Shown here one piece after another: positions 17,038 through 29,299 of a DNA stretch of 64,000 nt; position 1 is the first letter of the stretch; every line of letters starts with the position of its first letter. The translations under genes were made by a program, and so were the position numbers. The notes below the pieces were generated by a model that saw nothing but the letters and a program-made list of their open reading frames with translations, ran no database searches and was not told the DNA's origin. The stretch lies in NCBI GenBank assembly GCA_030247885.1, contig JAPDRO010000024.1:1-64000 (forward strand). The letters run 5' to 3'. Source of the stretch: Taxawa tesnikishii (nom. ined.) (Eukaryota; Ascomycota; Dothideomycetes; Dothideales).

Positions 17038-17145
17038 TTCTTTATATTATAAAGTTCTTTAGTTACATTAAAAGCTCGAAGATAATAGTTAATTACTATA
17101 AACTATAATTATCGGATATTTAGCTACTATTACTAATTAAGAACC

Positions 17146-17519
17146 TTTTAACTTGTGACAAAAGTGATGTCACGTGAGCATCTACTCTTGTATACCTTAG
17201 GTAGGGTTATACATGTTAACACTCCCCTAACCCTAGTAAGGGGTACAAGCGTGCAACGTCGCTAATGGATTCGAGGCTCGCAACCTTCCGGGCTTATTGG
17301 CCGACTCCGCGGCTTGCCGAGGCTCTACTCCCGTTTGGGATTTTACGCGCTTCTGCCACAACTCAGGTGGGAATCGAACTCGTGACCTTCTGTCGTACAT
17401 CGAGATCACGATTTAACCAACGCGCTAACCCGGGCTCATAACCTTTTAACTTGTGACAAAAGTGATGTCACGTGAGCATCTACTCTTGTATACCTTAGGT
17501 AGGGTTATACATGTTAACA
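17146..17519 (-). mobile_element. 374-bp TRIM (miniature LTR retrotransposon), young copy, looks whole
   Basis: Two identical 76-bp terminal direct repeats (17146-17221 and 17444-17519) bound 222 bp of non-coding DNA. The target duplication GAACC is perfect (17141-17145 and 17520-17524). Read on the minus strand, the terminal repeat starts TGTTAACA. Directly inside it is GGTTATGAGCCC, complementary to the anticodon arm of initiator tRNA-Met, as in half-tRNA priming known from copia-group elements. The other terminal repeat is preceded by the purine tract GGGGAG. An internal tRNA-like block carries A-box and B-box sequences. No open frame exists, so mobility would need proteins supplied in trans. 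It is not RIP-mutated although it sits in RIP-degraded DNA, and its terminal repeats are identical, so insertion is recent. A second full-length copy lies at 25884-26257. Confidence 0.88.
17370..17428 (-). promoter_or_regulatory. tRNA-like Pol III A-box and B-box inside the TRIM
   Basis: On the minus strand TTAGCGCGTTGG (17417-17428) fits a tRNA A-box and GAGTTCGATTCC (17370-17381) fits the B-box consensus GGTTCGANTCC with one difference. The spacing is that of a tRNA gene, and the sequence between them resembles a worn tRNA. No good acceptor stem closes, so I do not call a functional tRNA. The same boxes are still recognisable in the mutated copy at 25884-26257. Confidence 0.65.
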
Positions 17520-17524
17520 GAACC

Positions 17525-23034: not shown

Positions 23035-23557
23035 ACCCTCTACTATTACTACTAATTACTATAAGTACTACTATAGTTAGGAAATACGCTTCTATAAAAG
23101 AAAATATCTAAAAGGTAATATCTACTATAAAAAATAATAAGTACTTATTAACTTATATAATTACTCTTATATTTAATATTTAAACTTAACTTTATATAAT
23201 TATATATTTAAATAAACTCTAATGTATTTTATAAGTAAGTTAGCTACTTAAGTAAGTTAGCTACCTTACGAAACTAAAACGCTTATATAATAATATTATA
23301 TAATATTATAATACTTTATAGTAGTTTATATTATAAGATAATAACTACTTAGTTTAAATAGATAATTATATAACTTATTAAGCTAAGCGGGAATCTCTTT
23401 ATTTCTTAGCTACTATTATAAATAGCTTAATTAATTAATAAGTTATAATTAGTTTTACTATATATTTAATTATAGTTAAGTACTTAGTTTAACTAGTTAT
23501 AAGCTTAAGTTTATAATAACTTACTACTTAATTAAGTATAGTATATTTTATACTTAG

Positions 23558-23774
23558 AAGGGCTATAATAAGTAGTAAGACTAATATAATTAATACTTAT
23601 ATTAAAAGGGCTACTATAAGTAGTAAGACTAATATAATTCCTATATATAAAAGAGCTACTAAAAGTAGTAAGACTACTTATAAAAGTATACTAGTACTTA
23701 GAAGGACTATAAGGTAGTAAGACTAAGTACTATAGAGTATAGTAACTAAAAGGGCTATAATAAGTAGTAAGACT
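23558..23774 (+). repeat. Five-copy 26-bp motif in the copia leader
   Basis: The phrase AAGGGCTATAATAAGTAGTA, continuing GACTAA, recurs five times with small differences. Copies start near 23558, 23606, 23651, 23701 and 23749, separated by unequal spacers. All lie between the left LTR and the start of recognisable Gag sequence. Regular reuse of a short motif in a retrotransposon leader suggests an RNA element such as a packaging or translation signal, but that is inference. Confidence 0.7.
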
Positions 23775-25883
23775 AATTATATTAAGTAAAGCTCTTTATT
23801 ACTACGAGCTTACTAAGTATTATAAAGCCTACTTTACTTTTATAAATACTAAAGTCTACTAACTTATTACCTTCCCTTTCGCGCTAATTCGATTTTACTA
23901 TATTATTTTAATTTATATAAACGACTATAATAAACTTAATAGACGAATTCTTTAGTAAGAAGAGGCCCGTTTCTATTCTTATAAGAAGGAATTTAAAGAG
24001 ATAGTTTATACTTATAAGAAAGTAATTAATAGGAGAAAATATTTAGTTTATTATTAAGAATAAATTAAAAGAAAAGGAGGGTATATAGACGATAACTTTA
24101 TCTTTAACTTTAGGGGAAGAGTCTATAATAACTATATAGTTTCTTACCTTCTTATTTTATATTTAAGTTAATATAAAAGCTAAATATTAAATTACTATTT
24201 ATATTAGTAAGGATAACTAAGACTAGATTAAGAACTTAGATATAACTATAGCTAAATAAAAGGAGCCAAAGAACAAATACTTAGATAAGCTTTAAATAAT
24301 AATAAGGTAGTACCTATAAGATTTTATTAACTATAAAATAAGCCTAGAAATAACTATAAATAAAGTATAGACTTAACTAACTAAGCTAAGTAAGAGGGTA
24401 GCTACTACTTAACTAAATATAGTAACTATTAAGAAGCTAAGTAAGAGACTCTAATAGTTACTTTAAGCTTTACTAAATAAATATACTATCGTAAGGGATA
24501 CTATTAATACTTAAATAAATTTACTAATTAAAGAGTCGATCCTTAAGTTCTAAAAGAAAGAAGCTTCTTTTAAGGCTAAGGCTAGCTAATTTACTCTTCT
24601 TACTAAAAGGTATTAATAATAAAAGACGTCCGATAAAAGGAAATCCTAGTTACTAAATTAAGCTAAGTATTATCTTTATAATAGTAACTACTAGCTAAAA
24701 ACTACTCCTTTCTTGAAGATATAAGGATTATAGTAAAGGATAAAAGGAAATAAAAGAAGTCTTAAGCTAAGCTAAAGAGGAGTAATAACAATATAATAGA
24801 CTTAATTAATAAGCTCTATAAGGAAGTTATAAACTTAAAGTAAGAAAGAATAGGCTTAAAGTAAGAAAAGAAAAAGTATAAAGCCTTTAAAGTTAAGGAA
24901 ACTTTAACCTTAAGTAAATCCTAGACTATAAAGTTAAACTTATTAAGCTAAGATTAAGAGTCTATAAACCTTATTAAGGAAGTTACTTATCTCTCTAAGG
25001 AAGTAAGAAGTAAAGTTCCTTACTAAAGCTAAGCCTCTAATACTAATATAAGTTTATATATAACTAACTAGCTCTAGTTATTTAAGGGACTACTTCGAGA
25101 TATCTTAAGACGAAAGATTATAGTAAGAGGAGGAGTTTTATTTTTAAACTATTAAGGTATAGTAGAAATAATAAATAAGAATAAAAACTTAATCTTTCTA
25201 TTAAAGATACTCTATATTCCTAATCTTAAAGCTAACTTATTATCTAAAAGGAAGATATACGAGAGCGGACTTTATAGAACCTTCGATAAAGATAATATAT
25301 ACTTAAAAGATAAATAAGGAAATATTATAGTAAAGGTAAAGTATAAAGGTAATATTTATATTATAAATAAAATTACCTCGCTAAATAATTAATATACGTT
25401 TCGAGTTATATTAAGTACTTATTAGGATTCTATTCTATTAAATTTACGAAATAAAATTACCTACTAATAGGTAGAATTTATATAGCTCTAAGAGCTAAGT
25501 AATTAGCTAGCTAATATACCTAAGGATTTACTAATAAAAGTTAAGGTAAATATTATATAGCTCCTAGAGTTATATAAAGATCTAATAAATAGTCCCGAAA
25601 AGGTACTAGTAAAAGATATAGCCTAAAAGTAAAGATACTAACTATAGTATAAAAGGCTTACTTATCTTAAGGCTAAAAAGATTAGTAACTTATATAAGGT
25701 TATAATACTTACTAAACTAATCTAAATTAATAAAAGCTATTAATATAAGATTTATATGCTTACTAAGATTAGGAATAAGAAGGGACTTCTCTTAATAAGA
25801 AAGCTAGAAGTACTTAACTTAGTCTATATAAATATTTACGAACTATTCGAACTATTATAGTAAGGGTATATTATATTCCTTCT

Positions 25884-26257
25884 TATTAATATATATAACC
25901 CTACCTAAGGTATATAAGAGTCGATACTTATATAACGTTACTTTTGTTATAAGTTAAAAGGTTATAAGCTCGAGTTAGCGCGTTAGTTAAATCGTAATCT
26001 CGATATACGATAGAAGGTTACGAGTTCGATTCTTACTTAAGTTATAGTAAAAGCGCGTAAAATCCTAAACGGGAGTAAAGCCTTAGTAAGCTACGGAGTC
26101 GACTAATAAGCTTAGAAGGTTACGAGCCTCGAATTTATTAGTAACGTTATACGCTTATACCCCTTACTAGAGTTAGGGGAGTATTAATATATATAACCCT
26201 ACCTAAGGTATATAAGAGTCGATACTTACGTAACGTTACTTTTGTTATAAGTTAAAA
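25884..26257 (+). mobile_element. 374-bp TRIM, older RIP-mutated copy, full length
   Basis: This copy has the same length and architecture as 17146-17519, in the opposite orientation. The terminal repeats are 25884-25959 and 26182-26257, and the target duplication CTTCT is perfect (25879-25883 and 26258-26262). Differences from the young copy are almost all C to T or G to A. The primer-site region reads GGTTATAAGC, and the purine tract and the A/B boxes are still recognisable. It interrupts the copia element in the same orientation and was mutated along with it, so it inserted before or during the RIP of that element. Confidence 0.85.
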
Positions 26258-29200
26258 CTTCTTATTATAAATAACTACTTAAGGAAAGTTTAAATCTATA
26301 GACTAAGGACTAGGGATAAAGTTCCTACTTACCTTTAGTAATAAAAGAAGAAAGTAAAACTTTAGAGTAAAGTTAAGCTTAAGGCTATTAGAAGTAATAA
26401 TACTCCTAAGCTAAAGGAAGTCTTTTAAGAGTAAGAGAAATAAGAGGGAGTCTAACTATAATTTACTATTACTTAAATATCTTTATAAAATAGAGTTATT
26501 AAAAGAAGTAACTAAACTATAGAGTTTAATATAAGGGTAATACTTAAGGACGTAGGGCTATTAAACGAGTTCTAGTTCGAGGTAATATAAACTAATATTT
26601 ACCTTAGAAACCTTATATCTAACGGACTAGTTATTAATAGTAAATAACTTAGTCTTAAGGAAGCTTTTACTAAAATTACCCTATTAATCGACTATATTAG
26701 AGTCTAGGGTTATAAAGTTATTACTTATATAAACTCAAAATCCCTACCTTTATTCTTAAGATAAAATAAGCTAATAAATAAAGGTAAAGTTAAAGTCTTT
26801 ATAAGCTATATTAAAGGTACTACTAAGTAATAAAAGCTCTAGGTACTAGATATAAGAAAGATAATTATAAGTAGAGTAGTTAAGTTCTTTAAGAATAAAA
26901 AGAAAAGGAATATTAAGCTTAATATACTCGTTAAATCTACTTTAAATATAGTACCCTAAAGGAGGCTAATTAGTAGACTAAGGAGGTAGCTAATAGAGCT
27001 TATACTAAGTATTTATAAGGATATACTATAGTAGGAGGAGCTTCCTAAGACTATAGATTAGGAGGAGTCTTATATAACCTAATAAGAAGAGTCTCTACTA
27101 AAAGAACTATAATAAGAGAAGCGAGAGATAATTATTTTAACTTAGCTAAAAACTATATTCTCTTACGTTAAGATTCTTACCTTAGTTTTACTAAAGAAAG
27201 TCTTTTCTTACGTCGAAATCTTAATACTTAAGAAAATAAGAAGAAATCTCGATAAAGATAAGTTAAAAATTAACTATAAGTTAGCTAAGATTTCTAAGGC
27301 TCTTATAACTCTACTTATAAAAGAAGAATAAAGTTAAGTTATCGCTCTTTCTAGGGTTAATTAAGTAGAGGAGGAGTTTACTTTTATAGTAAAAGGTAAG
27401 ATAAATATCCTAATTTTGCGAACCTATTTAAAAGCTATTTATAACTCTATTTAGAGAGAATTTTAAAAGGAGACTATTAAGAAGGAGCTAAATACTTTGT
27501 AGGTAAACGTAACGTTTAAAATAGCTACCCTACTAAAGGGGTATAATATTATATTAAGTAAATAAGTTTTCGATACTAAGTTTAACTTAAATAGATTTCT
27601 AAATAAGCTAAAGGCTAGGCTAGTAGTAAGAGAATTCTCCTAAAAGTACGGTATTAATTTTAAATATACTTTTACTCTTACCTTAAGGTATAATACTCTA
27701 AGAGTCTTCTTAGCTATTATTATAATCGAGGATCTAGAGTACTATTAAGTAGACGTTAATAATACCTTTACTAAGTTATTCTTAAAGGAGGAGATTTATA
27801 TAGTACCTTTACCTAGTATTAATCTTGCCTCTAGCTAAGTACTTAAGGTTCTTAGGAGTCTATATAGTCTTAAGTAAGTAGCGAGAGACTAAAACTAGAA
27901 CTATATACTATAGCTTTAAAAGCTAGGCTTCGTTTAAAGTAAGGTAAACTCGTATCTTTTAATTTACTTAAAAAGGAAGATACTTCTCCTTATCTACGTA
28001 AATAACATCTAAGTAGCGTATAAGGATATTAATAATATTTTATAGTTTAAAGAGGCTTTTACCTTTATCTTTAAGATTAAGGACCTAAAAGAAATTAACT
28101 TTATCCTTAAAGTAAGAATTATAAGAAATAGGGAGGCTAAAATAATTAAAATAAACTAGTCTTATTATATTAAAGATATTCTTACTAAATATAATATAGA
28201 GAAAGATAAAGCTTACTTAGTAAAGGTACTATTAAATAGCTATAATATACTAAGACTAGCTAGACTCTAAGATATAAGAGTAAACTAAAGAGAGTACTAG
28301 TATCTAATTAGAAAGATAGTTTACCTTAGTATTTTAATAAGGCCTAATATTACCTTCGCTTTAAGTAGACTAAGCTAGTACCTTATAAATCTAGTAGAGT
28401 TTTATACTAAGGTAACTAAGGGAATCTTAAGGTACTTAAGATTAAATGCTAACCTAGTAATTATTTTAAGAGTATATTAAGACTAATATTTAACTAGCTT
28501 TTCTAACTTTAACTATATAATAAATAAACGAGATAGGATCTTTATCCTTAGTAATATATTTATGCTCGGAGAAGGGCTAATTAACTAGATAAGTAAGAAG
28601 TAAAAGTTAGTAGTAACCTCTACTATAGATACTAAATATATAGTAATATATACTTACTTAAAGTAATTATAATAGCTTATACTACTCTTAAGAAATATAA
28701 GCTATTAGTACCTTATTAGTAGTAACCCTTTTAAGCTAATAGTTTAAGAGGAGCTAAAGTTTACTATTAGATTACCTATTATACTTAAAGGAGATAACTA
28801 AGCTACTTTCTCTCTTATTTAAGATACGTATACTTATAATAAATTAAAGTATATCGATATAGCCTATTATTATATTAGAAATTTATATAAGAGGAAGAAG
28901 ATTAATATTAACTTTATTAGTATATAAGAGATAATTACTAATAGCTTTATAAAGCCTCTTTAAAGTTAGCATTTTTAGAGGTTTATTAGTTAACTTAGAC
29001 TATCTAAAGAGGACTAATTTAGCTAAGGAGGAGTATTATAAGATAATAGCTACCTAGTCCGAATAGATAGTTATATAACTTATTAAGCTAAGTAAGGAAT
29101 CTCTTTATTTCCTAGTTATTATTATAGATAGCTTAATTAATTAATAAGTTATAGTTAGTTCTACTATATATTTAGTTATAGTTAAGTACTTAGTTTAACT

Positions 29201-29299
29201 ATTTATAAAATAATATATAATTATTTAGAAATATTACTATCTTTTATATCTTTTATTTCTACTTTATAAGTATAAGAATTATACTTAGTTTTACTATAA

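Follow-up and report, generated by a model that had tools for sequence, protein, structure and literature searches.

Among the transposable elements in the window, as we call the whole 64,000-nucleotide stretch of Taxawa tesnikishii DNA analysed here, is a 374-bp TRIM with a sequence resembling a tRNA-type Pol III promoter between its terminal repeats. The preliminary description of this locus saw in this arrangement an element that is half SINE and half LTR element. The locus thus raises the question of what the tRNA-like sequence is, and whether its boxes could drive the RNA from which the element is mobilised.

A complete TRIM with identical terminal repeats

We found that positions 17146-17519 are a real TRIM, a non-autonomous LTR retrotransposon (Table 1). 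Two direct LTRs, a primer site and a purine tract lie within a total length (374 bp) below 1000 bp; there is a target-site duplication and dispersed copies exist elsewhere in the genome. The longest ORF overlapping the element encodes 58 aa, and it carries no mobilisation genes. The repeats, 76 bp each and identical in sequence, had been described beforehand together with the 5-bp duplication, the primer site, the purine tract and the lack of coding capacity, and all of these features were borne out. The raw repeat call was 80 bp because AACC stands before the second repeat as well; the LTR ends were set at 76 bp because the target duplications of other copies fix them. On the sense strand, T runs reach a length of four only in the LTRs, each of which has a TTTT (element positions 59 and 357). 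AT-rich blocks (GC 0.23-0.29 in 2-kb steps) alternate with stretches of GC 0.45-0.58 over window positions 1-32000, and the very start of the window has a C-rich skew of -0.41 and is perhaps a chromosome end.

Table 1 Features of the TRIM locus and of a related insertion in the window
Feature	Position	Strand	Remarks
Complete TRIM	17146..17519	- (sense strand)	374 bp; ends from alignment of 21 copies and duplications
5' LTR	17444..17519	-	76 bp, TGTTAACA...GTTAAAA; identical to 17146-17221
3' LTR	17146..17221	-	76 bp
Target-site duplication GAACC, one side	17141..17145	.	
Target-site duplication GAACC, other side	17520..17524	.	
Primer-binding site GGTTATGAGCCCGG	17430..17443	-	14 nt, abutting 5' LTR
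Polypurine tract AGGGGAG	17222..17228	-	abutting 3' LTR
tRNA-derived block, like host tRNA-Ile(AAT)	17361..17428	-	51/61 aligned bases identical
Box A-like TAGCGCGTTGG	17417..17427	-	A-box segment shares 12/13 aligned bases with tRNA-Ile
Box B-like AGTTCGATTCC	17370..17380	-	B-box segment shares 11/12 aligned bases with tRNA-Ile
TTTT in 3' LTR	17160..17163	-	
Second TRIM copy, diverged (RIP-type)	25884..26257	+	nested in Copia copy; duplication CTTCT
Diverged Copia copy (candidate partner family)	23358..29206	+	76-78% identity to L087; split by nested TRIM 25884-26257

A probably recently active family marked by RIP

The genome search for further copies proposed in the preliminary description located the family at 31 or more genomic places, comprising at least 21 full-length copies and at least 10 solo LTRs. 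These counts are lower bounds, and the 31 places were taken with their flanks. When the LTR alone served as query, the same 10 solo LTRs came up again, but of the 42 LTRs that belong to full copies the listing had only 30; solo LTRs with heavy mutation may therefore have escaped detection. A weak self-palindrome match from this search (C3:13455-13487) was left out of the count. Perfect 5-bp duplications flank 17 of the 21 full copies, the exceptions being L055 (one mismatch), L060, L061:1450 and L065, and 7 of the 10 solo LTRs, the exceptions being L070 and two in L072. At L072 (G000:C1:105549-107010), two solo LTRs lie in inverse orientation with crossed flanks (TTAAC..GATAA and GATAA..TTAAC), which suggests an inversion by recombination between them. 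Another locus, L061 (G000:C30:1420835-1422858), holds three full-length, strongly RIP-mutated TRIMs in about 1.6 kb, two of them with perfect duplications. The flanks (150 bp per side) are AT-rich at 20 of the 21 full copies, with GC of 0.17-0.28, and have a GC of 0.42 at the remaining one.

Seven copies, that of the window included, are little diverged, with 0-6 substitutions relative to the window copy; one of them also has a gap of one base. All seven have the same tRNA-like block, and six agree throughout the internal region. With several near-identical copies in the genome, the family has probably been active recently. The other 14 copies carry 26-99 substitutions relative to the window copy, nearly all C>T or G>A. 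In these diverged copies CpA was mutated at 525 of 602 site-copies, compared with fractions of 0.15-0.36 in other contexts, and this pattern is RIP of the CpA type. The LTR pairs within individual copies differ at 0-7 sites.

The internal block is tRNA-derived but no longer a tRNA

The tRNA-like character of the internal block, described earlier together with its A and B boxes, was upheld by comparison with host tRNAs. The block aligned best with host tRNA-Ile(AAT), at a local alignment score of 52 that none of 500 dinucleotide shuffles reached (shuffle mean 17.8, s.d. 3.4); the comparison covered 13 host tRNA sequences, several with introns left in, so that the source may be a tRNA closer still. 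For the host pool, RF00005 scored 63 of 926 candidates; 20 nuclear tRNAs were taken from among the matches listed, and three initiator genes were added. The alignment spans element positions 92-159, with identities at 1/1 position before the A box, 12/13 within it, 21/27 between the boxes, 11/12 in the B box and 6/8 after it. The box segments thus match tRNA-Ile at 23 of 25 aligned bases and the rest of the block at 28 of 36. Both boxes lie on the sense strand at tRNA-like spacing; box A lacks one base of the tRNA form. The 5' acceptor stem of tRNA-Ile aligns at a single position out of seven; the primer site occupies that place, and the block begins one base past its 14 nt.

The similarity is confined to one strand. 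The antisense (plus) strand of the block showed ordinary tRNA similarity, its score being reached by 63 of 500 shuffles, and we rejected a tRNA-like sequence on that strand. We likewise rejected an intact tRNA: the Rfam tRNA model had no match in the TRIM, ARAGORN at its default setting was silent, two of the five T-stem pairs are kept, and the RNA fold of the block was no better than that of shuffles (z = -0.56), as was that of the whole internal region. ARAGORN called the block a tRNA once its threshold was lowered to 80%, at which it also called an unrelated stretch on the opposite strand, and at 60% it called a third, further stretch. The block is thus tRNA-derived but no longer a tRNA, having lost the cloverleaf and kept boxes A and B. 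A second, weak tRNA-like stretch lies at 17222-17358 on the minus strand (element positions 162-298), where 10 of 500 shuffles reached the score obtained against the 13 tRNAs; this stretch could reflect origin from a tRNA dimer.

Three other places for such a sequence were considered. The TRIM LTR showed no similarity to eight host tRNAs (121 of 300 shuffles reached the sense score and 216 of 300 the antisense score), and a tRNA-like promoter in the LTR was rejected. The first 400 internal nucleotides of the Copia element described below contain no such boxes, its score being reached by 184 of 200 shuffles, so inheritance of the block from that candidate helper was also rejected. Finally, a genome search at E values up to 10 found internal sequence solely within the 21 LTR-bounded copies, a count that is itself a lower bound, and a free SINE relative, with dispersed copies outside LTRs, was rejected on this result.

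The copies of the family, whose alignment the preliminary description proposed as a test, do not reveal whether the boxes were selected, since they differ mainly through RIP after insertion and their sites therefore reflect mutation context. RIP-type mutation affected box A at 18 of 98 site-copies, against 37.0 expected from context, and box B at 14 of 70, against 17.4. The context-corrected ratios were 0.49 for box A and 0.80 for box B, compared with 1.10 between the boxes, 1.22 just after box B and 1.09 in the other internal sequence. The low value of box A is due to a GCGCG run, in which 2 of 56 site-copies changed. Because the only other GCGCG run, at element position 170 and outside the boxes, was spared equally (4 of 56), we do not read the box A ratio as selection. 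Closer agreement of the boxes than of the rest of the block with tRNA-Ile would be expected if the boxes had once been selected; the same segments are also the most alike among all tRNAs.

A primer site matching interrupted initiator tRNA-Met genes

In three host genes (L074, L082 and L084), part of the anticodon arm is perfectly complementary to the 14-nt primer site; we take these genes to encode initiator tRNA-Met because they have a CAT anticodon, an A1-T72 pair and the T loop ATCGA. The primer-site pattern occurs 13 times in the genome: in seven TRIM copies, in the three initiator genes on the opposite strand and in three LTR retrotransposons. Read backwards, the pattern occurs twice. The initiator genes (each :1501-1514 of its locus plus adjoining sequence) lie at G000:C1:570408, C11:89597 and C29:579415, respectively. 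ARAGORN reported no tRNA at L074 or L082 and miscalled L084 as tRNA-Gly because the genes are interrupted. The interruptions fall in the D-arm region and are GT...AG stretches, 53-59 bp long, whose branch motifs resemble CTAAC, CTGAC or TTAAC. L074 has two of them and L082 and L084 have one apiece; all use the same two positions, of which one splits box A. By their motifs these stretches look like spliceosomal introns in a tRNA. A search of the open-access literature gave no case of spliceosomal-type introns in a tRNA among the matches listed, and none appears in passages of PMC4090602 and PMC11782384.

A resident Copia family as candidate helper

A Copia element at L087:1985-7476 encodes Pol_BBD, gag-pre-integrase and RVT_2 reverse-transcriptase domains (RVT_2 E value 6.3e-53). 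Its terminal repeat was reported as 172 nt and measures 167 nt as bounded by GTTTA duplications. The element shares with the TRIM 17 nt at the primer site, the junction of purine tract and LTR (GGAG/TGTTA, the slash marking the boundary), a 5-bp target duplication and an LTR that abuts the primer site with no spacer. It differs in coding for domains and in LTR and internal sequence that are otherwise unlike those of the TRIM. The primer site is identical in three Copia copies, the other two of which align to L087 at 98-99%. Beyond the 17 nt shared at the primer site, no exact match between TRIM and Copia loci is longer than 11 nt, so the two are paired on the strength of short signals and timing.

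The timing comes from the state of the reverse-transcriptase copies. Among 47 RVT_2 matches in the genome, 30 cover nearly the whole domain (4 with 0-5 stops and 26 with 11-15) and 17 are fragments with 2-11 stops. Three of the four least-stopped copies belong to the Copia elements with the exact TRIM primer site, and the Copia family with the fewest mutations thus goes together with the young TRIM copies. The fourth, on C31, falls outside the exact primer-site matches; two short stretches of it align with this family at 94-95%. On the basis of the common primer site, the junction and this timing, we infer that the Copia family mobilises the TRIM in trans. The diverged Copia copy in the window has 13 stops in its reverse-transcriptase match (G000:C17:27509-28207). 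It is split by the second TRIM copy, so that within the window itself a TRIM copy is nested in a copy of its likely helper.

Position of the boxes and the source of the mobilised RNA

In tRNA genes, Pol III is expected to start 10-20 nt upstream of box A. Box A of the TRIM starts at element position 93, with 16 internal bases before it, and this spacing would place the Pol III start between positions 73 and 83, a stretch that includes the boundary between the 5' LTR (last base 76) and the primer site (first base 77). The resulting transcript, about 280 nt long, would run from the primer site onwards and contain a few bases of the 5' LTR at most. Under the standard scheme, neither first-strand synthesis nor strand transfer could go ahead on an RNA without the 5' repeat, and the predicted Pol III transcript is unlikely to serve as the mobilisation RNA. 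The Pol III promoter and the half-SINE, half-LTR design of the preliminary description are therefore disfavoured as the source of that RNA, since 16 bases before box A would put the start at the junction of LTR and primer site. The boxes may have some Pol III function, but are unlikely to drive mobilisation.

The reading we consider probable is a Pol II-driven TRIM, mobilised in trans by Copia, with a degraded tRNA-Ile-like passenger or spacer. Its RNA would most likely be started in the 5' LTR by Pol II. The 5' half of initiator tRNA-Met, annealed at the LTR-abutting site, would then serve as primer for reverse transcription, as the sequence match suggests, and resident Copia enzymes would reverse-transcribe the TRIM and integrate it with 5-bp duplications. 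A single capture, with a SINE as the source or through template switching onto a packaged tRNA, may have brought in the tRNA-Ile-like sequence, which would have been copied along ever since. The location of the block argues against the usual role, that of a promoter for the mobilisation RNA; the block is therefore most likely a passenger or spacer and at most a site for stray TFIIIC or Pol III activity.

We weighed this reading against others. That the block acts as RNA, helping the primer tRNA or the reverse transcriptase to load beside the primer site, is unlikely. In HIV-1, tRNA-like elements near the primer site are said to aid such loading, and here the block starts one base past that site and is unchanged in 7/7 little-diverged copies, though these are young; however, it has no stable or tRNA-like fold (z = -0.56, Rfam tRNA model silent), and the Copia partner lacks such boxes (184/200 shuffles). 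We regard as quite improbable a Pol III-driven TRIM of the TRIMp3 kind, in which the internal boxes drive the mobilised RNA. Sense-strand boxes A and B at tRNA-like spacing would fit it, as would the lack of a four-T run between boxes and 3' LTR and, from PMC10886601, a size within the Helenus range (311-1263 bp) and precedents in Cassandra and, by sequence only, Helenus. In those precedents, however, the promoter is in the LTR, whereas here the boxes follow the primer site, and a start no more than 4 nt inside the LTR end, or past it, would leave almost no 5' R/U5 to serve the first strand transfer.

Something of a long shot, too, is a two-polymerase mini-retroelement, in which an internal Pol III RNA of about 280 nt, running from the primer site to the TTTT of the 3' LTR, would exist beside the Pol II LTR RNA and compete for or guide the Copia machinery. 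A SINE inserted in the TRIM and still acting as a SINE, with a short Pol III RNA from the block, would account for the degraded tRNA-like head with boxes kept, which is typical of SINEs; with internal sequence confined to the 21 TRIM copies (E up to 10; lower bounds), we hold it to be very unlikely. Chance matches to the A and B boxes are hardly credible: one shuffle in 200 equalled a consensus A+B scan of the TRIM, which preferred an A-box position other than 17417-17427, and the tRNA finders were silent by default and called unrelated stretches at lowered thresholds, but the 61-base alignment to tRNA-Ile was equalled by 0/500 shuffles and is specific to the sense strand (antisense 63/500).

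Comparison with known systems

TRIMs of the size seen here, with LTRs, primer site and purine tract and free of genes, include the SMARTs, and PMC10886601 names a Copia helper for SMARTs and some other TRIMs. In passages of reports on TRIMs in two ascomycetes (PMC4112212 and PMC4646964) no tRNA-derived block is mentioned; the former uses 'tRNA' a single time, in naming a synthetase gene, and the latter never does. The nearest relatives in design are the Helenus or TRIMp3 elements (Kojima 2024, PMC10886601), described there as TRIMs with tRNA-derived sequence in their LTRs from fungi, animals and one plant. The fungal members, from Pucciniales and Agaricomycetes, have mostly initiator-tRNA anticodon-loop primer sites and inferred Copia helpers, and the same text explains TRIMs with small-RNA genes by SINE insertion into an LTR that then provides a Pol III promoter. 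Like Helenus, the element here is a TRIM with tRNA-derived sequence in which boxes A and B are kept (23 of 25 segment bases), and, like its fungal members, it has 5-bp duplications, an initiator-tRNA anticodon-loop primer site and Copia as the likely helper. Unlike Helenus as characterised there, which has the tRNA sequence in both LTRs and upstream of the primer site, it has this sequence internally only; and whereas the fungal hosts of Helenus are Pucciniales and Agaricomycetes, the host genome here shows CpA-type RIP, a sign pointing to a filamentous ascomycete. Cassandra, as treated in PMC10886601 and in passages of PMC7215508, is likewise a TRIM with a fragment of a Pol III gene, but this is 5S rRNA rather than tRNA, is placed in the LTR and is found in plants.

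The supposition that no such element had been described therefore holds in part. Going by PMC10886601, tRNA-bearing TRIMs as such are already known, with the tRNA sequence in LTRs; what appears to be new is a tRNA-derived block that is internal, in an element whose LTR has no tRNA similarity. Among the titles and abstracts listed from the open-access literature, no TRIM with an internal tRNA-derived block was found. A family with several near-identical copies and tRNA sequence outside the LTR, where a normal mobilisation RNA would not be expected from it, suggests that capture of such sequences need not be driven by promoter function, and the matched TRIM and Copia pair, with the same primer site, resides in one 29-Mb genome. 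With the promoter in the LTR in both Helenus and Cassandra and the boxes behind the primer site here, the TRIM of the window is set apart from both.
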